Shown: in pieces, positions 39,566 through 51,730 of the stretch | How the letters are laid out: every line of letters starts with the position of its first letter | Position numbering within the stretch: the first letter of the stretch is position 1 | Source of the DNA: Corallococcus soli | GTDB taxonomy: Bacteria > Myxococcota > Myxococcia > Myxococcales > Myxococcaceae | Direction of reading: 5' to 3' | DNA: 64,000 nt | Assembly: GCF_014930455.1 (NCBI RefSeq) | Contig: NZ_JAAIYO010000006.1 | Span: 186,001-250,000, forward strand | Program-made: the position numbers and the translations under genes | Notes under the pieces: generated by a model | The model's input: the letters and a program-made list of their open reading frames with translations, nothing else | What the model was told of the DNA's origin: nothing | Databases searched by the model: none

Positions 39566-40069
39566 TCACCGGGGCCGGAGGAGGAAGAGCGAATCACCCA
39601 CGCGCAGGGTGCGGAACGCGGCGAGCGGTCGGGAGGCCGGGCCCCGCACGACCTGACCGTCCAGGCCGAAGCGGGAGCCATGGCAGGGGCACTCCACCAC
39701 GCCCAGGGGGCCGTCCCAGTCCACCGCGCAGTCGCCATGCGTGCAGGTGCGCCACACGGCCCGGTAGCAGCCGTCCGCCGAGTGCACCACCACCACGTCC
39801 AGGAGCGCGGAAGGGACCCGGAGGTGGCCATGACCGCCCGGCTCCCGCAGGGCCGGGTGCTCGGAGAGGGGGACTTCCACCCAGCCCTCGCCGGGCGTGC
39901 CGGGAGGCCCCGCGTCGCCGCAGACCGCCGGGGACGCCCCCGCGTCGGGAGCCGCTTCCGGGTCGGGGCCGGGCAGCACCACCGCGTCGCGCCAGTCCGT
40001 CCCGCACCCCAGCGCGGCCAGGGCACAGGTGCCGCGCAGCAGCGTCCGGAGCGCGGCGCGGCGGTCCAC
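39566..40069 (-). CDS. Rieske [2Fe-2S] protein with Tat-type lipoprotein signal
   Basis: 167 residues from GTG 40069. The N-terminus DRRAALRTLL followed by a hydrophobic run to AALGC (Cys22) looks like a twin-arginine lipoprotein signal. The Rieske cluster is complete: Cys109-x-His111 and Cys127-x-x-His130, with Cys114 and Cys129 placed for the stabilising disulfide. It is an exported small electron carrier or oxidoreductase subunit. The frame is also open from an ATG at 40210 that overlaps the upstream lipoprotein stop. The segment 40063-40174 repeats a ribosome-binding/GTG unit three times, so several starts are possible. It probably belongs to the riboswitch-1 operon. Confidence 0.82.
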   Translation of the reverse strand: MDRRAALRTLLRGTCALAALGCGTDWRDAVVLPGPDPEAAPDAGASPAVCGDAGPPGTPGEGWVEVPLSEHPALREPGGHGHLRVPSALLDVVVVHSADGCYRAVWRTCTHGDCAVDWDGPLGVVECPCHGSRFGLDGQVVRGPASRPLAAFRTLRVGDSLFLLRPR

Positions 40070-40174
40070 CCCAGCCGCTTCCGTCAGCTCCGGAGCCGAG
40101 TGGTGGTCCACCCCACCCGCCTCCGGAGTCTTCATCGCCAGTGCCACACGGCGGTCCACCCCACCCGCCTCCGG
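40063..40174 (-). repeat. Threefold in-frame repeat of a ribosome-binding site plus GTG start
   Basis: On the minus strand the unit GGAGGCGGGTGGGGTGGACC occurs twice (within 40153-40174 and 40105-40126) and in a slightly diverged form at 40063-40083. The spacings are 48 and 42 bp, both multiples of three. Each unit contains a Shine-Dalgarno-like GGAGG (GGAAG in the last) about 8 nt before GTG-GAC. In the long reading these give EAGGVD-type repeats; in the short reading they are spare start sites before the Rieske signal peptide. Confidence 0.7.
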
Positions 40175-40206
40175 GGCCTCCGGAGGTGCGCGGGGTGGAC
40201 CCGCGC

Positions 40207-40980
40207 TCACGGCTGGCCCCCGTCGGGGGGCTGGCCGTTCACCACGGCGACGGCGTCCAGGTCGAAGCCCCCGGAAGTGCCGCCGTAGCTGTTGAGCCCC
40301 GTGTCGGTGAGCCGCACGAAGCGCGCGCGGGAGAGGCCCACGTCCGCCAGGTCGAAGCCGTCCCCGCCCGCCACCGTCGGGTCGGTGGGGGAAATGCCGT
40401 TGTCCGGCGCGGAGTGCACCGGGTGCGTGCCGGCGCAGCCCGGAAAGCCCCCATCCTTGTCGGACGGGTCGCAGGCGAAGTCGTACCAGGTGGCGCCGTC
40501 GTCGCTGACGGACACGCGGGCCGTCTCCGCGAAGATGTCGCCGCCGTACTTCTGGAACGCGTTTTCGAAGACGAGCAGGTCCACGCCCGGCCCGTCCACC
40601 GCGAGCAGGTCGGTGAACTCCAGGGTGATGAAGCCACCCCGTCCCAGCGACAGCACGTCGAGCGAACCCGTGTTCTGCCCCGCGCCCACCGGAGGCCCGA
40701 GCACGACGTCCGGGAAGCGGTCCTGCCCGAAGCCGGCCTGGTCGCCGAACTCGTACGCCGTCACCCGGTCCGCGAACGGATCCACCGGACGCACACCCGC
40801 GTCGACGCCGGCATCGTCCGTGCCGGCATCGTCCGTGCCGGCATCATCCGTCCCCGCGTCGGAGCCGGTGCCGGCATCGACGGAGGCCCCCGCGTCCTCC
40901 TGGGGCAAGGGCAGGTTCTCACCGTCGCCCGCGCAAGCGCACAGGGCGAGCAGCGCGCTGAGCGCGAGCAGCGAGCGCAT
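40207..40980 (-). CDS. Small beta-rich lipoprotein of the cobalamin-regulated operon (copy A)
   Basis: 257 residues. A lipoprotein signal (Cys14 or Cys16 in LALCAC), then a DAGT/DDAG linker (about 28-62), then a domain of about 190 residues. Its markers are VDLLVFENAF, ARVSVSDDGATWYDF, GGDGFDLADVGLSRARFVRLTD and a closing GTSGGFDLDAVAVVNG. The pattern suggests a beta-sandwich surface-binding domain. A paralogue lies at 43128-43805 in the same relation to a larger lipoprotein. It follows the larger lipoprotein gene by 2 nt and is therefore under cobalamin riboswitch 1. Corrinoid binding is an inference from regulation. Confidence 0.75.
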   Translation of the reverse strand: MRSLLALSALLALCACAGDGENLPLPQEDAGASVDAGTGSDAGTDDAGTDDAGTDDAGVDAGVRPVDPFADRVTAYEFGDQAGFGQDRFPDVVLGPPVGAGQNTGSLDVLSLGRGGFITLEFTDLLAVDGPGVDLLVFENAFQKYGGDIFAETARVSVSDDGATWYDFACDPSDKDGGFPGCAGTHPVHSAPDNGISPTDPTVAGGDGFDLADVGLSRARFVRLTDTGLNSYGGTSGGFDLDAVAVVNGQPPDGGQP

Positions 40981-40982
40981 GC

Positions 40983-42296
40983 TCACGGCCCCTGCCGGAT
41001 GCGCACGAGGCGGCGGCCGTTGACGTCCGTCACGCCCACGAGCAGGTCGGAGCCCAGCGACGACAGCAGGTCCACGGACGTGCACGCGTCGGAGGCCGTC
41101 AGGACGGGCTCCCGGGCGCCCACGCTCGGGGGCTGTCCGCCGCCCAGGCCGGGCGTGAGCGGGAAGCGCGACACGTCGCTGACGACGAAGGTGAAGCTCG
41201 CGTCGAAGGCGCCACGCGCCACCGCCACGCCAGCGCCAAAGCCCGTGGCGTTGTTGAAGTTGCTGTCCACGTCGACTTCGGGCTCGTCCGTGAGCACCAC
41301 CGGCGTGCGCGAGGACACCGCCGTCGCCAGCTTGGCGGCCGCCACGGCGTGGGCCACGTTCACGTACGTCTGCGGCACCGAGTAGCCGAACACCGCGATG
41401 CCGTTGTCCGCGATGGCGGAGAAGCCGCTGCCGCCCACCTGCGCCGGGAAGCTCACCGCCTTCACTGCCGTGAAGGGCTTGGTGGAGGTCAGCAGCGCGT
41501 AGACGCCCAGGCCGTCCGACACGGTGTCCAGGCCGCCGCCGTTGATGAAGAACGTGTCGGTGGTGCCCGCGGCCGTGAAGTTGGACGGCGCGCTGACGTA
41601 GGTCGTCGCGTCGCGCGCGACCGGGTCGAGCACCGCGACCTTCCCCGAGCCATCCGACTTCGTGTAGCCGGCGAGCAGCCGCGTGCCGTCGTAGGCCAGG
41701 GTGTAGGACGGGAAGGTGCTCGTACCGGCGGCGCGGTCCTCGGGCGCCAGCACGGTGTCGAGCGCCGCCTCGCCCAGCTTCACGTCCGGCCAGGTGCCCA
41801 GCGCGAAGAAGTCACGGCCCGTGGCCGTCGTGCGCAGCGCGAAGAGCGAATAGGCGGGGCCGGGCGTGGACACCACCGCGACCACCTCCGTGGACAGGGG
41901 CGCCGCTTCCGCGACGCTGAAGCCCGGCTGGAGCTGGAGCGTGCCCAGCTTCTCGTCCCGGGGCACGGTGTCGCACAGCCCGCCGGTGCCGCCATCCGTG
42001 CCGCCGTCGGTGCCGGTGCCCGCGTCCGTCTGCGTGCCCGCGTCGGTGCCCGCGTCCGTCTGCGTGCCCGCGTCGGTGCCCGCGTCGTCACCGCCAGTGT
42101 TGGAGTCGACCTGGGTGCACTTCTCCTCCACGCAGGCCCAGCTCTGTCCCTGGGGGGGCGTGCTCTTGTCGCGGCAGTCGAAGGCGTCCACGCACTCCGA
42201 ACCGCAGCCCGTCCCGCCCAGCACCACCGCCAGCAGGCCGCCCAGCAGCGCCGCGCGCTGGCCCTTCGTTCCCATCCGCTTCATGTCGCTCCGCAT
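40983..42296 (-). CDS. Large lipoprotein with DAGT linker and propeller-like domain (copy A)
   Basis: 437 residues. Signal with Cys31 in LGGTGC, a short Cys-rich module (CVDAFDCRD ... ACVEEKC), a repetitive TDAGT linker (about 70-105), then about 330 residues of beta-rich sequence. Recurring blocks include LGTLQL, TPGPAYSLF, SNFTA, INGGGLDTVSDGL, GVGVAVA-like strands and a final NGRRLVRIRQ. This is compatible with a beta-propeller, though blade counting was not possible. It is the first gene after cobalamin riboswitch 1. Its paralogue is at 43805-45271. A surface corrinoid-capture role is inferred. Confidence 0.75.
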   Translation of the reverse strand: MRSDMKRMGTKGQRAALLGGLLAVVLGGTGCGSECVDAFDCRDKSTPPQGQSWACVEEKCTQVDSNTGGDDAGTDAGTQTDAGTDAGTQTDAGTGTDGGTDGGTGGLCDTVPRDEKLGTLQLQPGFSVAEAAPLSTEVVAVVSTPGPAYSLFALRTTATGRDFFALGTWPDVKLGEAALDTVLAPEDRAAGTSTFPSYTLAYDGTRLLAGYTKSDGSGKVAVLDPVARDATTYVSAPSNFTAAGTTDTFFINGGGLDTVSDGLGVYALLTSTKPFTAVKAVSFPAQVGGSGFSAIADNGIAVFGYSVPQTYVNVAHAVAAAKLATAVSSRTPVVLTDEPEVDVDSNFNNATGFGAGVAVARGAFDASFTFVVSDVSRFPLTPGLGGGQPPSVGAREPVLTASDACTSVDLLSSLGSDLLVGVTDVNGRRLVRIRQGP

Positions 42297-42475
42297 CGCG
42301 TCCTCGTTCCCCTCCGCCCGGAGGCGGAAGAATTCCTGACGGGAGGCGGCACGGGCGAAAGGCAACCGGAGCTCCCGCGTGCAACGCACCAGGAGGACCT
42401 GCCTACGCCGTCAGCTCCCCTCGGAGGTTCCGGTCTGTCTTCCGGGCCCTCCGTGAAGAGGGACACCGGCTCATC

Positions 42476-42609
42476 GCCAGGTCTTCGGACTCGCGGGAAC
42501 GGGGCTTCGGATGCGGGCGCCATTCCTGCTCACCGCTGCGGGGCAGTCCCGGACTCACACCGGGTTCCCTGGAAGCCTCCACACCCCATGGTGGGAAGGC
42601 ATCGATGAC
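42476..42609 (-). promoter_or_regulatory. Cobalamin riboswitch 1 (short form)
   Basis: On the minus strand the leader shows the B12-riboswitch core: AGGGAACCCGGTGTGAGTCC, ACTGCCCCGCAGCGGTGAGC and the closing GAGTCCGAAGACCTGGC (complement of 42476-42492). The interval between the core and the closing segment is only about 35 nt, and no CACTG...GGGAAG arm is found, unlike riboswitch 2. The downstream leader shares a conserved CCTCCGAGGGGAG hairpin region with riboswitch 2, about 180 nt before the lipoprotein start. Cobalamin binding would be expected to reduce expression. Confidence 0.88.
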
Positions 42610-42615
42610 GGGGCG

Positions 42616-42644
42616 GGACTACGGCGCCCCCAGTGCAATGTCAA
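42616..42644 (-). promoter_or_regulatory. Predicted promoter of the riboswitch 1 operon
   Basis: TTGACA (42639-42644, minus strand) and TAGTCC (42616-42621) with a 17-nt spacer, placing the start just before the aptamer. The -35 box overlaps the stop codon of the DUF4177-like gene. Confidence 0.6.
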
Positions 42645-42979
42645 TGCGGCGTGGGTTCGGGCTGCTTGCGGCGCATCAGGACGTAGCGCCGCGTGCTGCC
42701 GTCCACGACGACGGTGGACACCACCTGCCAGCCCTCCTCCCCCAGGCGCTGGAGTTCAACGAGGTCCTCCTCCGGGCCCTGGCGGGTCACGAAGGTGTAC
42801 TCGTACGCCGGAGGCGGCGTGGGCGCGGCGGGCGGCGTGGGCGCGGCGACGGGCGCGGCCTTCGTGGACGTGCGCGCGCGCGTCGTCTGGGCCCGGGCGA
42901 CGGTGGGGAAGAGGGAGACGGCGGACACACCGGGGAGGACGCCCATCAACACGAGGAGCGAAGCGAGATGACGGTTCAT
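42641..42979 (-). CDS. Secreted DUF4177-like protein
   Basis: 112 residues. A signal peptide (about 1-31, ending ARAQ), a Pro/Ala/Thr linker, then a compact C-terminal domain: YEYTFVTRQGPEEDLVELQRLGEEGWQVVSTVV...RYVLMRRK. This has the length and GEEGW core of DUF4177 proteins. The function is unknown. It lies between the two cobalamin-regulated operons and has no riboswitch of its own. ATG at 42979, GGAG about 9 nt upstream. Confidence 0.7.
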   Translation of the reverse strand: MNRHLASLLVLMGVLPGVSAVSLFPTVARAQTTRARTSTKAAPVAAPTPPAAPTPPPAYEYTFVTRQGPEEDLVELQRLGEEGWQVVSTVVVDGSTRRYVLMRRKQPEPTPH

Positions 42980-43078
42980 GGATGCGGACTCCGGGGAGGA
43001 TGCCCAGGCATGTAGTCCCGGGCCGTCCTGGCCGGAAGCCTCACCGGGGCGCGGGAGCTTCCACGGAGCCACGAGGCT

Positions 43079-43110
43079 CCCCGGACCGTCCGCTGGAGGA
43101 CGGCCCGGGG
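43079..43110 (-). terminator. Terminator-like hairpin after the copy B operon
   Basis: A 13-bp stem (CCCCGGACCGTCC against GGACGGCCCGGGG, one G-T pair on the minus strand) with a 6-nt loop, 18 nt past the stop of the copy B small lipoprotein. No T-tract follows. Confidence 0.6.
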
Positions 43111-43127
43111 CCACCGCGAGCCGCGCG

Positions 43128-43805
43128 CTACGGCAGTTGCACGCCGTTCACCACCGCGACGGCATCCAGGTCGAAGCCGCCGCTGGTGCCCGCGTACCCG
43201 TTGGCGCCGGAGTCCCGGATGCGCACGAAGCGCGCGCGGGTGAGGCCCACGGCGGCCAGGTCGAAGCCGTCCCCGCCCGCCACGGCCGGGTCGGTGGGGG
43301 AGATGCCGTTGCCGGGGCTGGAGTACACGGGCGTGACGCCCGCGCAGCCGGGGAAGTTGCCCGCGGCGTTTCCGGACGCGCACGGGAACTCGAACCAGGT
43401 GACGCCGTCGTCGCTGACGGCCACCACGCCCGTCTCCGCGAACGGCCGGCCACTGGGCCGCAGGAACGGGTTTTCGAAGACGAGCAGGTCCACGCCCGGC
43501 CCGTCCGTCACCGCGATGTCGGTGAACTCCAGGACGATGACGCCGTTCTGTCCCAGCGACAGCACGTCCAGCGAACCCGAACCCGCGCCCGAGCCCTGTG
43601 GAGCGCCCAGCACGATGTTCGGCAGCTGGCCCTGTCCGAACCCGGCGGCGGCGCCAGGTGCGAAGGAGACGATGTGGTCCGCGAATGGATCCCCCACCAG
43701 CGTCTGCTCCAGGGTGGACTCCATCGCCTCATCTCCACCGCACGCCACGGACAGGAGCACGGCGAAGCCCAGGGTGCACGACTTCGAAAGCAGGGAGCGC
43801 ATCAT
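43128..43805 (-). CDS. Small beta-rich lipoprotein of the cobalamin-regulated operon (copy B)
   Basis: 225 residues, lipobox LSVAC (Cys22). It has the same domain as the protein at 40207-40980: GVDLLVFENPF, AVSDDGVTWFEF, GCAGVTPVYSSPGNGISPTDPAVAGGDGFDLAAVGLTRARFVRIRD and GTSGGFDLDAVAVVNG. Unlike copy A it lacks the DAGT linker. The ATG overlaps the stop of the larger lipoprotein by one base (TGATG), so the two are translationally coupled under riboswitch 2. Confidence 0.78.
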   Translation of the reverse strand: MMRSLLSKSCTLGFAVLLSVACGGDEAMESTLEQTLVGDPFADHIVSFAPGAAAGFGQGQLPNIVLGAPQGSGAGSGSLDVLSLGQNGVIVLEFTDIAVTDGPGVDLLVFENPFLRPSGRPFAETGVVAVSDDGVTWFEFPCASGNAAGNFPGCAGVTPVYSSPGNGISPTDPAVAGGDGFDLAAVGLTRARFVRIRDSGANGYAGTSGGFDLDAVAVVNGVQLP

Positions 43806-45271
43806 CACTGCACCTGCTGGATGCGGACCAGACGCGGCCCGTTCTTGTCGTCCAGGCTGACGAGCAGGTCCGCACCGATGGCGGTCATCCCCGTCACGCG
43901 CGTGCACTGGTTCACGTAGGTGAGGACCGGCTGACGCGAGCCGACGGTGACAGCGCCCCCCTCATCCGTCACCGTGAAGGCGAAGCGCGACACGTCGGTG
44001 CCGGCGAAGTTGTAGTTGGGCGGAACGTAGTCGCCGCGAAGCACCGCCACGCCCGTGCCCTGGCCCGCGGCGGCGACGAAGTTGGAGCCCACGTCGAGCG
44101 CGGGCTCATCCGCCACGATGAACGGCGTGCCCGTCCGGAGGGCCGCGTCGATCTTCGCCGGAGCCACCGCGTGGCCCACGTTGGTGAAGGTGTCGTCGGA
44201 GAAGTAGCCGAGCATCGCGACGCCGTTGGTGGCCACGGCGGTGAAGCCGCTGCCGCCCGTGATCGCGGGGAGCGTGCCGACCTTCAGCGACGTGAACGGG
44301 GTGGTGTCCGTCCGCAGCGCGTAGATGGCCAGCCCCGCCGACACCGTATCGAGCCCACCGCCGTTGATGAGGAACGCACCCGGCACGACGCCCGCCGTGA
44401 AGTTGCTCGGCGCGGGGACGTAGGTGGAGGAAGCCGGCGTGACGCTGTCGTAGACCGCCAGCGAGCCCGGATAGCCCGTCCCGGACTTCGTATAGCCGGT
44501 GAGCACGCGCTGACCATCCGACTCCACGAAGCCGTTGAGGAAGAGCATGGCGGAGGGGGCGCGGTCGCCGGGAGCGGCCACGTCGTAGAGCGGGACCGTG
44601 CCCAGCGACACCTGGGGCCACGTGCCCAGCGAGTACAGCGCGTGCGGGCCGGAGGAGCCGCCCGACACCACCGTGAAGAGCGAATATGCAGGCCCCGGCG
44701 TGACACCCACCGGACCCGCCGAGGCCGGCAGCGCGGCCGACTCACCGGCCACGAACTCCGCCGCGAGCTGGAGCGTGCCCAGCTTCGGGTCATACGTGGC
44801 GCTCAGGCAGGGGTCGACAGGGCCCGCGTCGGGCTCCGTGCCGGCATCCGTCCCCGCGTCGGGCTCCGTGCCGGCATCCGTCTCCGTGCCTGCATCGGTT
44901 CCCGCGTCCACCGTCGTGCCCGCGTCCGTCTGCGTGCCAGCGTCGGTGCCCGCATCCGTCTGCGTGCCGGCGTCGGTGCTGGTGCCCGCGTCGGTTCCCG
45001 CATCCACCGTCGTGCCCGCATCCGTCTGCGAACCTGCGTCCGTCTGCGTGCCGGCGTCGGTCCCCGTGCCCGCGTCAGGGACCGGGATGGGCGTCAGCTC
45101 ACAGCGCTGCTCGACACACGCGTAGCGCTGGCCCTCGGGAGGGGCTCCCTGGTCCCGACAGTCGAAGTCATCGGCGCACTCATCGCCGCACCCCGTGCCA
45201 GTCAACGCCATCGCGAAGGTCGTCAGCACCAGCGCGAGCTTCCGCCCCGAAATCATCCGCTCTGTCTTCAT
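43805..45271 (-). CDS. Large lipoprotein with long DAGT linker and propeller-like domain (copy B)
   Basis: 488 residues. Lipobox TGTGC (Cys28), the Cys module CADDFDCRD...ACVEQRC, then a DAGT/TDAGT linker of about 85 residues (twice that of copy A), then the same propeller-like domain (LGTLQLAAEF, TPGPAYSLF, SNFTAG, INGGGLDTVSAGL, final NGPRLVRIQQ). The linker is encoded by a diverged tandem repeat at about 44820-45080. It is the first gene after riboswitch 2 and presumably projects from the outer membrane. Confidence 0.78.
   Translation of the reverse strand: MKTERMISGRKLALVLTTFAMALTGTGCGDECADDFDCRDQGAPPEGQRYACVEQRCELTPIPVPDAGTGTDAGTQTDAGSQTDAGTTVDAGTDAGTSTDAGTQTDAGTDAGTQTDAGTTVDAGTDAGTETDAGTEPDAGTDAGTEPDAGPVDPCLSATYDPKLGTLQLAAEFVAGESAALPASAGPVGVTPGPAYSLFTVVSGGSSGPHALYSLGTWPQVSLGTVPLYDVAAPGDRAPSAMLFLNGFVESDGQRVLTGYTKSGTGYPGSLAVYDSVTPASSTYVPAPSNFTAGVVPGAFLINGGGLDTVSAGLAIYALRTDTTPFTSLKVGTLPAITGGSGFTAVATNGVAMLGYFSDDTFTNVGHAVAPAKIDAALRTGTPFIVADEPALDVGSNFVAAAGQGTGVAVLRGDYVPPNYNFAGTDVSRFAFTVTDEGGAVTVGSRQPVLTYVNQCTRVTGMTAIGADLLVSLDDKNGPRLVRIQQVQ
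44820..45080 (-). repeat. Coding tandem repeat (DAGT linker)
   Basis: Imperfect units of 12-18 bp encode DAGT, TDAGT and TVDAGT runs. The same kind of repeat, shorter, lies in copy A near 42000-42085. The period is a multiple of three and it lies within a CDS, so it is protein low complexity and not a CRISPR or intergenic array. Confidence 0.8.
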
Positions 45272-45444
45272 CCGCGACTGCTCCCTTGCATCGCCCCCAC
45301 GGGCGAGGTGATTCCAAGGGAGGGCGAACGGAGGGCGGACCGCGAACGGAGGACACGTCAGACACGACACGCCGCGCGAGCGGAAGACCCCCGTCACCTC
45401 CCCTCGGAGGCTCCGGTGTGGCCATGCCCGGAGGCATGGGTCGT

Positions 45445-45640
45445 GGCAGGTCTTCGGACTCGCAGGCGCGGGAGGAGCCTCATCGGCTCCACCCATCTAC
45501 TGACCGTCGCTTCCCAAACCCCCTCAGGGGGCCAGTGCTTGCGGGGACGGTGTTCGTTCCTGCTTACCGCTGCGGGGCAGTCCCGGATTCACACCGGGTT
45601 CCCTTTAAACCCCTCATCTGCGTGATGAGGAGTACCGACG
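45445..45640 (-). promoter_or_regulatory. Cobalamin riboswitch 2
   Basis: The minus-strand leader contains AAAGGGAACCCGGTGTGAAT, ACTGCCCCGCAGCGGTAAGC, then a peripheral arm CACTG-(CCCCCTGAGGGGG)-TTTGGGAAG, and the closing GAGTCCGAAGACCTGCC. All standard elements of the cobalamin riboswitch are present. Downstream, CCATGCC/GGCATGG and the CCTCCGAGGGGAGG region can form alternative hairpins as the expression platform. The start of the lipoprotein gene lies about 170 nt further on. Confidence 0.92.
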
Positions 45641-45649
45641 ACGCGCGGT

Positions 45650-45678
45650 GACGTATGGCGGAAGGCAAGGCTTGTCAA
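45650..45678 (-). promoter_or_regulatory. Predicted promoter of the riboswitch 2 operon
   Basis: A consensus TTGACA (45673-45678, minus strand) and TACGTC (45650-45655) with a 17-nt spacer. It lies just downstream of the stop of the Cys-rich lipoprotein, so this operon is independently transcribed. Confidence 0.6.
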
Positions 45679-45697
45679 TACAAGCGCGGGCAACGCC

Positions 45698-47314
45698 TCA
45701 CGGCACCGCGACGATGTCGATGGCATTGGACACCACGCGCCGTGGGTCCACCGGACACGCATCCAGCGCCGCGCCCTTCGCCTCTGGCGTGGAGTTGCCG
45801 CGCCGCTCCACGAACTTCCCGTCGCGCACCTCCACCACGAACACGCGGCCCGCGTTCACGTCCGTCACGTACACGGCGTTGCCCACCACCGCGAGCCGTC
45901 CGCCCACCGCGAGGTCGCAGCCCTGCTCCGGCCCGCCAGCGCAGCCCGGAGACAGCGCGTAGGACGCCACCGGCCGGTCGTCCTTCACCAGCACCAGCCC
46001 CGTGGCGCGCACGTCCTTCGCTTGATAGCCGCCCGCGGTGTCGAACCGCGCCTCGCCCAGGCAGCTCACCACCAGGTGCTCGCCCACCGCCTGCACGTCG
46101 CCCGCGTTGAGACAGTCCTGGGCCCCCAGGTCGATGGCGCGCACACCCCCATCCGCCGGGTCGATGCGCGCGAGCATCCCAGGGCCATTGGGCAGGTAGT
46201 CGTTCGCGGGGTTCAGGTTGGTGAGCGCGACATAGACGCCCGCGTCCGTGGCCACCGCCGCGTACGGCAGCGCCATCGTCGTGCCGCCGTCGAAGGACTT
46301 GAGGTCCAGGCCGGTGAGCGGAATGGAATCCACGAGCCGGGGACGCTCCGGGTCGCTCACGTTGACGCGCGCCACGGCGTTGCCCTGCCGGAAGTCGGAG
46401 CCGGCGGTGCCGAACAGCGGGATGTAGAACGTGTCACCGCGCTTCGCGATGACCTGCGGGCTGGTGTTCGCGCCCAGGTTCACCTGCCCCACCGTGCGCA
46501 ATCCCAGTCCACCGCCCTGCGCGGGCCCTTCCCGCTTGAGCACCTGGAGCGTGTTGTTCACGGAGTCGAGGACATACACATACGGAGGGTCCACGAGGAT
46601 GTCATTGGGCGACGCCGCCACCGCGCCCAGCGAGTCCTCCTCCACCACGGCCCCCAGCGCGCCCGCCAGCGCCTGCGACAGCACCGAGCGCGCCGCGTCC
46701 GCCGCCAGCACCACGCCGTCCCACGCCGCCAGCGACTGCACGCCCGAGCCGAACTGCCGCCGGGGCCCCATCCGGTCCGTGCCCGCCTGGATGCCGACGA
46801 GCTGCCCGTTGGTGTAGCAGGCCGCCACCACGTCATACATGCACCGGCCCGCGTGGCAGGACTGCACGTCCGGACACACCGTGCCGCAGGCGCCGCAGTT
46901 CAGCGGGTCGCTCGCGAGCACGGCGCAGCCGCCATTGCACCGCTCGGAACCCGGGGGACAGGCCTCCGCGCAGGTGCCCGCGCTGCACACCTGATCCGCG
47001 GGGCACGCGTTGCCGCAGGCGCCGCAGTTGCGCGCATCGGACGACAGGTCGAGGCACGCCTCGCCGCAGGCCGGTGCGCCGGTGCGGCATTCACACGCGC
47101 CCGCCTGACACGTCTCCCCTTCCCCGCACCGGACGCCACAGCCGCCGCAGTTGAAGGGGTCGCCTTGCAGGTCCGCGCACTCGGAGCCGCAGACGTCGAG
47201 TCCGGACGTGCACAGGACCTTCTCCTCCGGACAGCCGGTGAGGACCGAAGTGACCAGGGCGGACACCAGCAGCGTGAGCCACCGCGACCGCGCATCAGGG
47301 AGGGGACGCGACAT
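45698..47314 (-). CDS. Cys-rich, probably beta-propeller surface lipoprotein partnered with the TonB receptor
   Basis: 538 residues. Lipobox LTGC (Cys28), then about 130 residues with three or four Cys-rich units of the type CGxxCxDLxxDxxNCGxCGxxC common in myxobacterial surface proteins, then about 370 residues of propeller-like repeats. Examples are SLAAWDGVVLAADAARSV, PNDILVDPPYVYVLDSVNNTLQVLKREG and VVGNAVYVTDVNAGRVFVVEVRDGK. The gene overlaps the end of the TonB receptor gene by 20 nt, so it is under riboswitch 3. BtuG of Bacteroides is likewise a propeller lipoprotein paired with BtuB; common function is inferred. Confidence 0.8.
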   Translation of the reverse strand: MSRPLPDARSRWLTLLVSALVTSVLTGCPEEKVLCTSGLDVCGSECADLQGDPFNCGGCGVRCGEGETCQAGACECRTGAPACGEACLDLSSDARNCGACGNACPADQVCSAGTCAEACPPGSERCNGGCAVLASDPLNCGACGTVCPDVQSCHAGRCMYDVVAACYTNGQLVGIQAGTDRMGPRRQFGSGVQSLAAWDGVVLAADAARSVLSQALAGALGAVVEEDSLGAVAASPNDILVDPPYVYVLDSVNNTLQVLKREGPAQGGGLGLRTVGQVNLGANTSPQVIAKRGDTFYIPLFGTAGSDFRQGNAVARVNVSDPERPRLVDSIPLTGLDLKSFDGGTTMALPYAAVATDAGVYVALTNLNPANDYLPNGPGMLARIDPADGGVRAIDLGAQDCLNAGDVQAVGEHLVVSCLGEARFDTAGGYQAKDVRATGLVLVKDDRPVASYALSPGCAGGPEQGCDLAVGGRLAVVGNAVYVTDVNAGRVFVVEVRDGKFVERRGNSTPEAKGAALDACPVDPRRVVSNAIDIVAVP

Positions 47315-49340
47315 GGGAGTCCTCGGAGGAAGCGGAGCGCAGGGGTTCGAGCGCCACGGAGAAGGTCACGTAGGCGGCGCGGCCGGGCAGCGGCATGCCG
47401 GTGAAGTCGGCGGTTCGCGCGTCCAGCAGGTTCTTGAGGTCGAACGACACGGTGAGGTCCGGTCGGCGCAGGAAGGTGCTGGACGCGCCCACGCTCACCC
47501 AGGTGCGCGACGGCAGGGACAGGCGCGCTTCGCCCACGCGGTTGATGAGCTGCGCGGATTGGACCAGGACCTCGGTGCGGGCGTTGAGCCAGTCCGGCCC
47601 CGCGCGCACGCGCCCCACCCACTTGTGGCGCGGTCGGTAGGGCAGCTCCTTGCCGAAGTAGCGGGGGTCGCCGTAGCGGTTCTGCGTGCGGGTCCACGCG
47701 TAGCTGGTGGTGGCGGTGAGCCACGCGCGCGGGCGGGCCTCCACCTCCACCTCCGCGCCCCACACGCGCGCGGCGGCGAAGTTGTAGGGCTTCGCGAGCA
47801 TCGGAGGATACATCTCGTAGGCGATGAGGTTCTCGTACACCGCCGCGAAGCCGCCCGCGGTGACGCTCCACGCGGCGTCGCGCCACAGGCCCGCGGCATC
47901 CACGGACAGGGCGCGCTCGGGCTTGAGGTCCGGGTTGGGCAGCAGCAGCCCCTGCCGGATGTACAGCTCCAGGAACGAAGGCGCGCGGTGGGACTGGCCC
48001 GCGTTGGCGCGCACGCCGAAGCCACGGCCCAGGTCCACGCTCGCGCCCAGCTTGGGCGACAGCAGCGAGTAGTCCCCCACGCGCTCCACGCGCAGCGACG
48101 GCACCAGCTTCACGCGCTCGGAGAGCAGGGACAGCTCGTCCATGACCATGACGCTCGCGCGCCACCACGACGCGGACTGCGCGCCCGTCGCCTGCGTGAC
48201 GGCCTCGGAGGAGGTGGCCAGCGTGACGGCGAGCGCGTGGCGACCGCCCACCACCGCGCGCCCCTCCACCTCCAGGCCGCCCACGGTGTAGCGCTGCGCG
48301 CCCGCATCCACGCCCGTCGTCCCGCCGAGGACGTCCACCCAGTCGCGCCGGAAGAAGCCGCGAGCGCTGGCCTCGCCCGTGTCCCCGAAGGGCCGGCCCC
48401 AGCGACCGCCCAGCGACAACCGGGTCTGGTCCTGACGGCGGGAGAGTTGCGGGTTCTGCACCGTGCCCGCGAGCGCCCGGTCCTCCAGGGACAGCTGCGC
48501 GAGCAGGTCCACGCGCCCGCCGCCGTCCAGGCCACGCTGGTACTTCACGAGCGCGCCACCGCCGCGCGCGTCGTTGCGGGTGCGCACCTCCTCCATGAGC
48601 GGGTTGTCATCCAGCGCGGGCAGCTCATCGACGCGGAAGCGGAAGTCCCCCTGCGAGCGCCCGCCGTGCACCAGCACCAGCGCCCGTCCGTCGAGCAGCG
48701 CGCCCGACGCGGCGACGTGGCCCGTCACGGTGTCGAAGCTGCCGTAGGTGACCTCGCCGCTGGACACCAGGCGCGAGGACGGAGCGCGGGTGACGATGTT
48801 GACCGCGCCGCCCAGGCCGCCCGCGCCGTAGCGGGCCCCCGCAGCGCCGCGAAGGATCTCCAGCCGCTCCACCAGCGCGACGGGGACGAGCGACAGGTCC
48901 GCGATGCCGCCCGCGCCGTTGAGTGGAATCCCATCCAGGAACACGAGCACCCCGTTGGCGGACGCGCCGCGCACCACGAGGCTCTTGCTCTGCCCATACC
49001 CGCCGGAGTCCTGCACGACGAGGCTCGCGGATCCGCCCAGCAGCTCCGCGGTGTCACGCGCTTGCCCCGCGCGCTCGCGCGCATCGATGACGGTGATGGC
49101 GCCGGTGGGATCCCGCCGCTGCACGGAGTCCGGGGGCGCTTCGGGGATCGCCTTGCCGATGACGTCCACGGTGGGGAGGACGAACTCAGGCAGGTCCGGC
49201 TCGGCGTCGGAGGAAGTCGGAGCGGGGTCAGCGACAGGGCGCACGGGTTCGGGCGCAGGAGGTTCCTGCCCGGCGTGAGCGAGTCCCTGGAAGCTGAGCA
49301 CCAGACCCAACGAGGCCCGGGCGAGAAGCGAGCGCAACAT
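47295..49340 (-). CDS. btuB: TonB-dependent outer-membrane receptor (BtuB-like, cobalamin-regulated)
   Basis: 681 residues. Signal peptide (about 1-23), a plug domain (about 70-190; DSVQRRDPTGAITVID, SKSLVVRGASANGVLVFLDGIPLN, RLEILRGAAGARYGAGGLGGAVNI) and a beta-barrel to a C-terminal strand (AAYVTFSVALEPL). The plug motifs are those of TonB-dependent transporters, and the length fits BtuB-type receptors. Corrinoid as substrate is inferred from cobalamin riboswitch 3 in its leader. ATG at 49340 with GGCGGAG close upstream. No BtuCDF permease is encoded in the window. Confidence 0.9.
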   Translation of the reverse strand: MLRSLLARASLGLVLSFQGLAHAGQEPPAPEPVRPVADPAPTSSDAEPDLPEFVLPTVDVIGKAIPEAPPDSVQRRDPTGAITVIDARERAGQARDTAELLGGSASLVVQDSGGYGQSKSLVVRGASANGVLVFLDGIPLNGAGGIADLSLVPVALVERLEILRGAAGARYGAGGLGGAVNIVTRAPSSRLVSSGEVTYGSFDTVTGHVAASGALLDGRALVLVHGGRSQGDFRFRVDELPALDDNPLMEEVRTRNDARGGGALVKYQRGLDGGGRVDLLAQLSLEDRALAGTVQNPQLSRRQDQTRLSLGGRWGRPFGDTGEASARGFFRRDWVDVLGGTTGVDAGAQRYTVGGLEVEGRAVVGGRHALAVTLATSSEAVTQATGAQSASWWRASVMVMDELSLLSERVKLVPSLRVERVGDYSLLSPKLGASVDLGRGFGVRANAGQSHRAPSFLELYIRQGLLLPNPDLKPERALSVDAAGLWRDAAWSVTAGGFAAVYENLIAYEMYPPMLAKPYNFAAARVWGAEVEVEARPRAWLTATTSYAWTRTQNRYGDPRYFGKELPYRPRHKWVGRVRAGPDWLNARTEVLVQSAQLINRVGEARLSLPSRTWVSVGASSTFLRRPDLTVSFDLKNLLDARTADFTGMPLPGRAAYVTFSVALEPLRSASSEDSHVASPP

Positions 49341-49411
49341 GCTCCGCCTTCCGCTCCCTCCATCGAAGAGAGAAGGCCTCGCGGAGTGTCTCAAGACACG
49401 GCCGCACCCCT

Positions 49412-49620
49412 GGGCAGGTCTCCTGGCTGACGGACTCCAGACCTGGGCGCACACCGCGCCCTTCTGGAAGGAACCCTCCACCTTCCCTCCGCGTCCGGTG
49501 ACGCGAAAGTGGTGACAGCCGAGGCTTCCGGCCCTGGACCTCAGGGCGACCCGTACACAGTGGCGGGACCGCGCCGGACTCGCACCGGCTTCCCTCTTGA
49601 AAGCCCGACATGGGCACCCA
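49412..49620 (-). promoter_or_regulatory. Cobalamin riboswitch 3
   Basis: The minus strand reads AGAGGGAAGCCGGTGCGAGT, CGCGGTCCCGCCACTGT, a GGAAGCC arm and the closing GTCAGCCAGGAGACCTGCC, the classic cobalamin aptamer order. It leads the TonB receptor gene, whose start is about 70 nt beyond the aptamer. GTGTCTTGAGACAC follows the closing segment and could form part of the switch. It belongs to a different sequence subtype from riboswitches 1 and 2 (CCGCCACTGT against CCGCAGCGGT). Confidence 0.95.
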
Positions 49621-49631
49621 AGGGCCCGGCC

Positions 49632-49660
49632 GTTCTAGGAGGTCACCCCTGGCGCGTCAA
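49632..49660 (-). promoter_or_regulatory. Predicted promoter of the TonB receptor operon
   Basis: TTGACG (49655-49660, minus strand) and TAGAAC (49632-49637) with a 17-nt spacer, placing the start about 6 nt before the aptamer. It matches the layout of the two other riboswitch promoters. Confidence 0.65.
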
Positions 49661-50148: not shown

Positions 50149-50498
50149 AGTGGGCCTGGGCGTGGGTGTTGGGCTGCGTGCTGATGGGGCCGGGGCTGTC
50201 CGAAGCCGCCAGTTCCCGCACGCAATACGTGGGGGTGGTGAACCTGAACGAGGCCACGGCAGCGGAGCTGGACCTGCTGCCGGGCGTGGGAGAGAAGGCG
50301 GCGCAGCGCATCCTCGAGCACCGCAAGAAGCGGCCCTTCGGGCGCGTCGAGGAGCTGGTGCGGGTCAAGGGCTTCGGCAAGAAGAAGTTCCTCAAGCTGC
50401 GTGCGCACCTGGCGCTCAGCGGCCCCACGACGCTCAAGGTGGAGAAGGTCCCCGTCCCCCCGTCGCCGGGAAGGGAGGGACCCGCCACGAACCCATGA
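50145..50498 (+). CDS. ComEA-like helix-hairpin-helix protein
   Basis: 117 residues. A signal peptide or N-terminal membrane anchor (about 1-22) is followed by a tandem helix-hairpin-helix DNA-binding domain: VNLNEATAAELDLLPGVGEKAAQRILEHRKKRPF and ELVRVKGFGKKKFLKLR. This is the ComEA pattern of exported DNA-binding proteins used in natural transformation. The last 40 residues (from GKKKFLK) and the following terminator are duplicated at 51523-51730. Translationally coupled to the upstream small gene. Confidence 0.88.
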   Translation: MKWAWAWVLGCVLMGPGLSEAASSRTQYVGVVNLNEATAAELDLLPGVGEKAAQRILEHRKKRPFGRVEELVRVKGFGKKKFLKLRAHLALSGPTTLKVEKVPVPPSPGREGPATNP

Positions 50499-50583
50499 CA
50501 AGCACAACCTTCGGTTGATTCAGGCTCGGTAGGGGCCGCCCCTCCCAGGCACCGGCATGCCTGGGGGTGGCGGCCCCTGTTTC
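50377..50583 (+). repeat. 207-bp direct repeat, copy A (ComEA 3' end plus terminator)
   Basis: Runs from GCAAGAAGAAG inside the ComEA-like gene to CCCTGTTTC after its terminator. Copy B (51523-51730) is nearly identical, with one extra C and a few substitutions. Sequence before and after the repeat differs, except for short matches described at 50598 and 51491. Confidence 0.9.
50531..50583 (+). terminator. Terminator of the ComEA-like gene (repeat copy A)
   Basis: A long stem, AGGGGCCGCC with GGCGGCCCCT (outer) and CCCAGGCA with TGCCTGGG (inner), followed by GTTTC. The same hairpin recurs at 51678-51730. Confidence 0.8.
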
Positions 50584-51472: not shown

Positions 51473-51522
51473 CGCATGCGCGGGAAGTGAACCCCGGGCC
51501 GTGCGTGGTGGCGCGGGCGTGA

Positions 51523-51645
51523 GCAAGAAGAAGTTCCTCAAGCTGCGTGCGCACCTGGCGCTCAGCGGCCCCACGACGCTCAAGGTGGAGAAGGTCCCCG
51601 TCCCCCCCGTCGCCGGGAAGGGAGGGACCCGCCACGAACCCATGA
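51523..51645 (+). pseudogene. 3' fragment of a ComEA-like gene
   Basis: Contains only the last 40 or so codons of the ComEA-like reading frame (KKKFLKLRAHLALSGPTTLK...), with a one-base insertion near 51606 that alters the C-terminus. No signal peptide or first hairpin motif remains, so no functional product is expected. Confidence 0.75.
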
Positions 51646-51677
51646 CAAACACAACCCTCGGTTGATTCAGGCTCGGT

Positions 51678-51730
51678 AGGGGCCGCCCCTCCCAGGCACC
51701 GGCATGCCTGGGGGTGGCGGCCCCTGTTTC
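51678..51730 (+). terminator. Terminator, repeat copy B
   Basis: The same nested stem as 50531-50583, now placed after the DUF6968-like gene and probably ending that operon. Confidence 0.75.

Follow-up and report, generated by a model that had tools for sequence, protein, structure and literature searches.

A cobalamin riboswitch locus of Corallococcus soli encodes a BtuB-like receptor and BtuH-like lipoproteins predicted to capture corrinoids

The stretch analysed here (the window; 64,000 nucleotides of a Corallococcus soli contig) carries three minus-strand operons, each headed by a cobalamin riboswitch. In operon A, aptamer 3 (49396-49636) precedes the gene of a BtuB-like TonB-dependent receptor with a signal peptide (47295-49340), which is followed by propLP (45698-47314), a propeller-like lipoprotein whose N-terminus is rich in Cys. 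The program-listed receptor ORF (47295-49481) starts upstream of the likely ATG at 49340. Operon B, headed by aptamer 1 (45428-45655), runs from bigLP1 (43805-45271, probable ATG at 45271), predicted to join an Asp/Gly/Thr-rich linker to a beta-propeller, through smLP1 (43128-43805), a small lipoprotein with a BtuH-like domain, to a small exported DUF4177-like protein (42641-42979) whose match to PF13783 is weak and under the cut-off (0.0097) and which holds the same place in Corallococcus relatives. Operon C consists of aptamer 2 (42459-42621), bigLP2 (40983-42296, probable ATG at 42296), smLP2 (40207-40986, part of alignment A5), and a Rieske [2Fe-2S] protein (39566-40210; PF00355, 1.3e-11) with a twin-arginine (RR) motif and a lipobox. 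Stop and start codons overlap by 1-4 nt at bigLP1/smLP1, bigLP2/smLP2 (4 nt), and smLP2/Rieske (4 nt), as read from the sequence, which indicates co-translation.

A first-pass annotation, made without database searches, had described the two bigLP-smLP pairs as paralogous and had counted five lipoproteins. Both descriptions hold, as the propeller domains of bigLP1 and bigLP2 share 48% and the smLP cores 65% identity, and a lipobox was found in all five of propLP (LTGC), bigLP1, bigLP2, smLP1, and smLP2. Elsewhere in the window, a segment of about 215 nt is duplicated at 50369-50583 and 51515-51730 (97-98% identical, spacing 1147); it includes the last part of a gene for an HHH protein together with a near-palindrome of 48 nt, AGGGGCCGCC...GGCGGCCCCT.

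Riboswitches were called by cmscan with RF00174 at its gathering score of 31.5. All three matches span model positions 1-189 on the minus strand, at 68-92 bits: 91.8 bits (E 1.9e-21) for aptamer 1, 68.8 bits (E 7.1e-15) for aptamer 2, and 68.3 bits (E 9.6e-15) for aptamer 3. The three aptamers within 7.2 kb that the first-pass annotation had recognized from the sequence alone were thus recovered, their proposed boundaries lying within the matches. No further RF00174 match was detected anywhere in the C. soli genome (9.44 Mb, 68 contigs, 99.99% complete), so that the entire RF00174 regulon of this strain sits in the locus. Among 96 Myxococcaceae genomes, 94 carry at least one RF00174 switch, mostly 1-5 each.

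The arrangement TTGACA/G-17-TAnnnn, likewise proposed before each aptamer, was located with the -10 box abutting the aptamer (TTGACA-17-TACGTC for aptamer 1, TTGACA-17-TAGTCC for aptamer 2, and TTGACG-17-TAGAAC for aptamer 3). The -10 boxes are weak, which explains why a stricter sigma-70 scan scored none of the three. A -35 box with at least 5 of 6 positions occurs in 33 of 54 comparable leaders, close relatives included, versus 7.6% of shuffles. On the coding (minus) strand of the locus, a terminator scan detected no intrinsic terminator, and the fold of the TonB leader was no better than that of shuffles (z -0.29). In the bigLP leaders of several genera, a near-invariant CCTCCGAGGGGAGG lies about 20-60 nt past the aptamer, with no T-run and no fixed start codon; it is found in the window at 45410-45380 and 42430-42400 (minus strand) and at loci L084, L085, L086, L087, L088, L089, L091, L095, and L098. 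This element is possibly part of the expression platform.

Assignment of the TonB-dependent receptor, as in the first-pass annotation, is borne out by Pfam (PF00593, 5.9e-31; PF07715, 1.5e-19). Its best NCBIfam model is the B12 receptor TIGR01779 (120.7 bits, 6.7e-35), under the curated equivalog cut-off of 599.7, and siderophore receptor models match as well. PropLP belongs to NF041328 (MXAN_6577-like, 3.5e-43), shows weak NHL/YVTN matches, and stays beside the TonB gene in Myxococcus, Citreicoccus, and others; its profile gave no match to BtuG in the PDB. The bigLP profile likewise gave no BtuG match and nothing useful in the PDB. The AlphaFold2 model of bigLP1 (pLDDT 93.7, pTM 0.92) is a beta-propeller whose structural matches are generic, with Z 16-18 to many propellers. 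In this model, the large lipoproteins show a generic propeller fold without specific kinship to BtuG, and such a fold is too common for B12 binding by bigLP to be inferred from it.

The small lipoproteins match no Pfam family. The AlphaFold2 model of smLP1, built from 70 homologues, has a pLDDT of 95.3 and a pTM of 0.89. A Foldseek search of the PDB with this model returned a sole match below 0.001, 8blw_B, which is BtuG1 of Bacteroides thetaiotaomicron (3.9e-5). VIA-align placed BtuH2 (7biz_A) first, with Z 14.0 over 155 residues at 3.0 A, and residues 388-660 of BtuG1, its BtuH domain, second with Z 12.9; all other matches reached at most 9.3 and were mostly CBM32-type jelly rolls. Profiles made with no structure point the same way. 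A profile of 23 diverse smLPs had its best PDB match, a weak one, at 8blw_B 381-498 (E 0.023), and HHalign of smLP with two Bacteroides BtuH fragments gave 91.5% (E 8.6e-7) versus 0.3% for a reversed-fragment control. Nothing useful came from single-sequence phmmer searches of the PDB with smLP, propLP, and one distant member or from a PDB search with the profile of the smLP core set A5, and nothing relevant from a viral structure library and phage records.

In the HHalign alignment, smLP D-L-x-V-F-E-N-[AP]-F is paired with BtuH2 Y-D-F-C-V-Q-G-N-A-F, which places smLP N91 and F93, invariant in 70 of 70 smLPs, on Asn399 and Phe401 of the BtuH2 GNAF segment. BtuH2 residue numbers are the chain index plus 100, an offset that also places Gln333. 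Asn399 and Phe401 make contact with B12 at its phosphate and its lower base (PMC8941943). They are the two BtuH2 contacts covered by the comparison with smLP, out of Gln333, Asn399, Phe401, His476, Tyr510, Trp511, and Trp577; the surroundings of Gln333 are not strictly kept in smLPs. Judged from predicted fold and sequence profile, smLP1 and smLP2 are remote homologues of BtuH. The first-pass annotation had called the lipoproteins functionally like BtuG but of separate make. A separate make does not stand for smLP1 and smLP2; the large lipoproteins show only the generic propeller, and propLP has no sequence match to BtuG.

Against NCBIfam, 69 of 70 smLPs matched NF033170 (LIC_13355) at E <= 0.01 (best 5.9e-16) and no other family, which suggests that LIC_13355 of Leptospira is probably a BtuH relative. 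The match of smLP1 itself (39 bits) is far under the curated subfamily cut-off of 120. LIC_13355 has been studied in Leptospira for binding activities and not for B12 (PMC11891782).

The smLP family is found in hundreds of species, with at least 447 relatives among 84,980 species genomes scanned. The best 80 of these at least 447 loci come from Corallococcus, Myxococcus, Nannocystis, Plesiocystis, and many Myxococcota MAGs and also from records labelled Planctomycetes, KSB1, WOR-3, Zixibacteria, and Sumerlaeaceae. For 76 of the best 80, the surroundings were scanned with a covariance model built here from 15 sequences, and at 52 of the 76 a cobalamin riboswitch was found upstream of smLP, on its strand. 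Of the 69 loci with enough upstream sequence, 17, each with at least 2.5 kb upstream, have none; a further 7 of the 76 are too short upstream. The riboswitch matches fall on the smLP strand 63 times versus 3 on the other. At about 14 loci, no more than 350 nt separate the switch from the smLP core, which makes smLP the first gene under control of the switch. In a separate search sharing some genomes with the 76-locus set, the Rfam model RF00174 found a switch at 17 of 30 loci.

At many loci, genes for BtuB-, propeller-, and BtuF-like proteins are neighbours of smLP. Most other Myxococcaceae have one bigLP-smLP pair and Corallococcus has two; in the tree, the copies separate into two supported clades (98/98 and 99/97). 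A Myxococcus-type block consists of a riboswitch, the TonB gene, propLP, a BtuF-like gene, a second riboswitch, bigLP, smLP, and the Rieske gene. The Rieske gene also follows smLP in several other Deltaproteobacteria/Myxococcota MAGs (L094, L097, L099, and L106), and since this order reaches beyond Myxococcaceae, a functional link between the Rieske protein and B12 capture is suggested. One Myxococcus-type locus (L085) stems from a record labelled Comamonas sp. KCTC 72670 (BNCN01000012.1) and falls among Myxococcus in the tree; this record is probably mislabelled or contaminated.

Where bigLP is absent, a family of short lipoproteins (YDPDKFNKIVWT...YYC, no Pfam match) adjoins smLP, often between the riboswitch and smLP (L064, L067, L070, L071, L072, L094, L102, L104, L119, L122, and others). 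It is possibly another B12-linked surface protein.

The photoreceptor CarH of Myxococcus xanthus uses B12. This species imports B12 and cannot synthesize it (PMC8156234), and no uptake route for it was described in the literature found. CobJ is absent from all 16 Corallococcus genomes searched and MetH is present in C. soli, so Corallococcus should depend on imported B12; C. soli probably cannot make the vitamin. There is no btuFCD beside the locus in C. soli. BtuF-like genes paired with FecCD occur elsewhere in the genome (C2 and C3), as does a BtuF-like gene without FecCD (C22), with no riboswitch; these genes are candidates for the inner-membrane importer.

Taken together, the locus very probably encodes a corrinoid-scavenging system at the outer surface of a B12-dependent myxobacterium, in which corrinoid binding is predicted. 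By the riboswitch class, low cellular adenosylcobalamin would permit expression of the three operons, and B12 would repress them. The BtuB-like receptor and the adjacent propLP, by their position and the likeness to BtuB-BtuG, may form the import gate. The lipoprotein pairs, each a predicted propeller and a BtuH-like jelly roll, would be anchored and exposed at the surface, bind cobamides tightly, and hand them over to the gate, after which a BtuFCD-type ABC transporter encoded elsewhere in the genome would carry them across the inner membrane. The corrinoid-capturing surface layer proposed in the first-pass annotation is thus retained as a riboswitch-controlled B12-capture locus (a BtuB-like receptor, propellers, and two BtuH-like lipoproteins, in a genome with MetH and a genus without CobJ) and loses the separate make for smLP1 and smLP2. 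What that annotation had overlooked is the likeness of each pair to the two domains of BtuG1, the Rieske lipoprotein at the end of one operon, and the absence of any further switch from the genome.

A broader proposal would unite smLP and LIC_13355 in one widespread BtuH superfamily, whose members would be surface lipoproteins that capture cobamides in hundreds of species (Myxococcota, Planctomycetes, KSB1, WOR-3, Zixibacteria, and spirochaetes). It would also give the surface Rieske lipoprotein of Myxococcaceae a role in reducing the bound corrinoid, or in unloading it, ahead of import. As a whole, this is speculative and we consider it unlikely; we know of no B12 uptake system with a redox step of this kind.

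Several other explanations of the locus were weighed. A variant of surface scavenging, in which B12 is captured above all from prey or from neighbours, or else in vesicles that the cell secretes, and is not fed directly to the cell's own receptor, has a small probability in our judgement. Myxobacteria are predators (PMC9304148), and vesicles of B. thetaiotaomicron are reported to carry B12-binding lipoproteins (PMC12751083). The lipoproteins of the locus outnumber the receptor five to one, which would fit such a use, and the variant is compatible with corrinoid scavenging by the cell itself.

A locus controlled by B12 might also serve another cargo needed at B12 scarcity, such as a metal (cobalt), a siderophore, or methionine precursors. 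Cobalamin riboswitches can control metal or alternative-enzyme genes, and elsewhere in Myxococcaceae they also head genes like those of MetE, aminotransferases, and NrdA, an assignment made by eye on the sequence. The position of the receptor under the curated B12 cut-off and its matches to siderophore models would agree with such a cargo. However, its best model is still a B12 receptor, the specific structural kin of smLP are the B12-binding BtuH2 and BtuG1, smLP retains two residues that contact B12, and BtuF-like genes are repeatedly found next to it, which makes a different cargo very unlikely. Least probable, and likewise very unlikely, is that smLP is a carbohydrate-binding jelly roll of the CBM32/F5-8 type by which the cell or its receptor is tethered to glycans and that its BtuH match reflects only a common fold: CBM32, discoidin, and PAPP-A domains (Z 8-9) do fill Foldseek ranks 2-50 and BtuH resembles such folds (AlyQ, PMC8941943), but the BtuH matches exceed all others by 4-5 Z units, two structure-free sequence-profile tests choose the BtuH domain, and cobalamin riboswitches recur upstream of smLP across phyla.

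Read as a corrinoid-scavenging system, the locus is a concrete candidate for a B12 uptake route in Myxococcaceae and suggests how soil myxobacteria scavenge B12. If the smLPs bind cobamides, BtuH-type capture would extend to several phyla of bacteria living in soil, sediment, and water, competing for B12 with surface lipoproteins would not be peculiar to the gut, and a new function would be suggested for the Leptospira lipoprotein LIC_13355. The 2022 description of BtuH reportedly knew of no structural homologues, and its survey is said to have covered chiefly gut Bacteroidetes. In the literature searched, mostly without subscription journals, we found no described myxobacterial system of this kind, in line with the first-pass annotation, and no paper joining Corallococcus, cobalamin, and riboswitch, which is weak evidence of absence. 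Among the papers listed there, only one joins BtuH and Myxococcota, and it deals with DUF4465, a family that smLP fails to match by profile.

Compared with known systems, the DUF4465/BtuJ proteins (PMC13398666) are similar in being beta-jellyroll lipoproteins tied to loci with a TonB receptor, a propeller, and a riboswitch, in a family that includes Myxococcota. They differ from smLP, in which PF14717 has no match at E values up to 1 (nor has it one in any of 92 Myxococcaceae genomes) and in whose alignment the TPAY motif conserved in BtuJ is absent. The BtuJ structures 9FCT and 9I2L are absent among the smLP fold matches listed, and a distant tie may exist.

The BtuB-BtuG system of gut Bacteroides (PMC10404256) has the same order, a TonB receptor gene immediately followed by a gene for a propeller-like lipoprotein, with a cobalamin riboswitch in control. 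BtuG is a seven-bladed propeller lipoprotein beside BtuB; in C. soli, propLP adjoins the TonB gene and bigLP is the predicted propeller. The C. soli locus differs in the Cys-rich N-terminus of propLP and its missing PDB sequence match to BtuG, in a bigLP without specific match, and in the lack of btuFCD at the locus. BtuB with surface B12-binding lipoproteins under riboswitches is a kind of system already known from Bacteroides. What is new is that it occurs in myxobacteria and that a broad non-Pfam family is remotely homologous, by fold and profile, to BtuH; new as well are the split architecture, the three switches in one locus as the only ones of the genome, and the Rieske partner.

The closest likeness is that of smLP to BtuH2 (7BIZ) and the BtuH domain of BtuG1 (8BLW), with which it shares the predicted fold (Z 14.0 and 12.9), the colinear D-x-x-V-x-x-N-[AP]-F including Asn399 and Phe401, the surface-type lipoprotein form, and a riboswitch-controlled locus with BtuB. 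It differs from them in a sequence identity of about 14-24%, in having no Ig/PKD domains, in being a separate short lipoprotein, and in belonging to Myxococcota. BtuG1 of B. thetaiotaomicron consists of a propeller and a fused BtuH domain, with two B12 sites (PMC10404256), whereas the C. soli counterparts are adjacent genes. Because of this composition, the bigLP-smLP pair resembles BtuG1 split in two, a two-gene counterpart by analogy of architecture, which is not proof of a common propeller origin.
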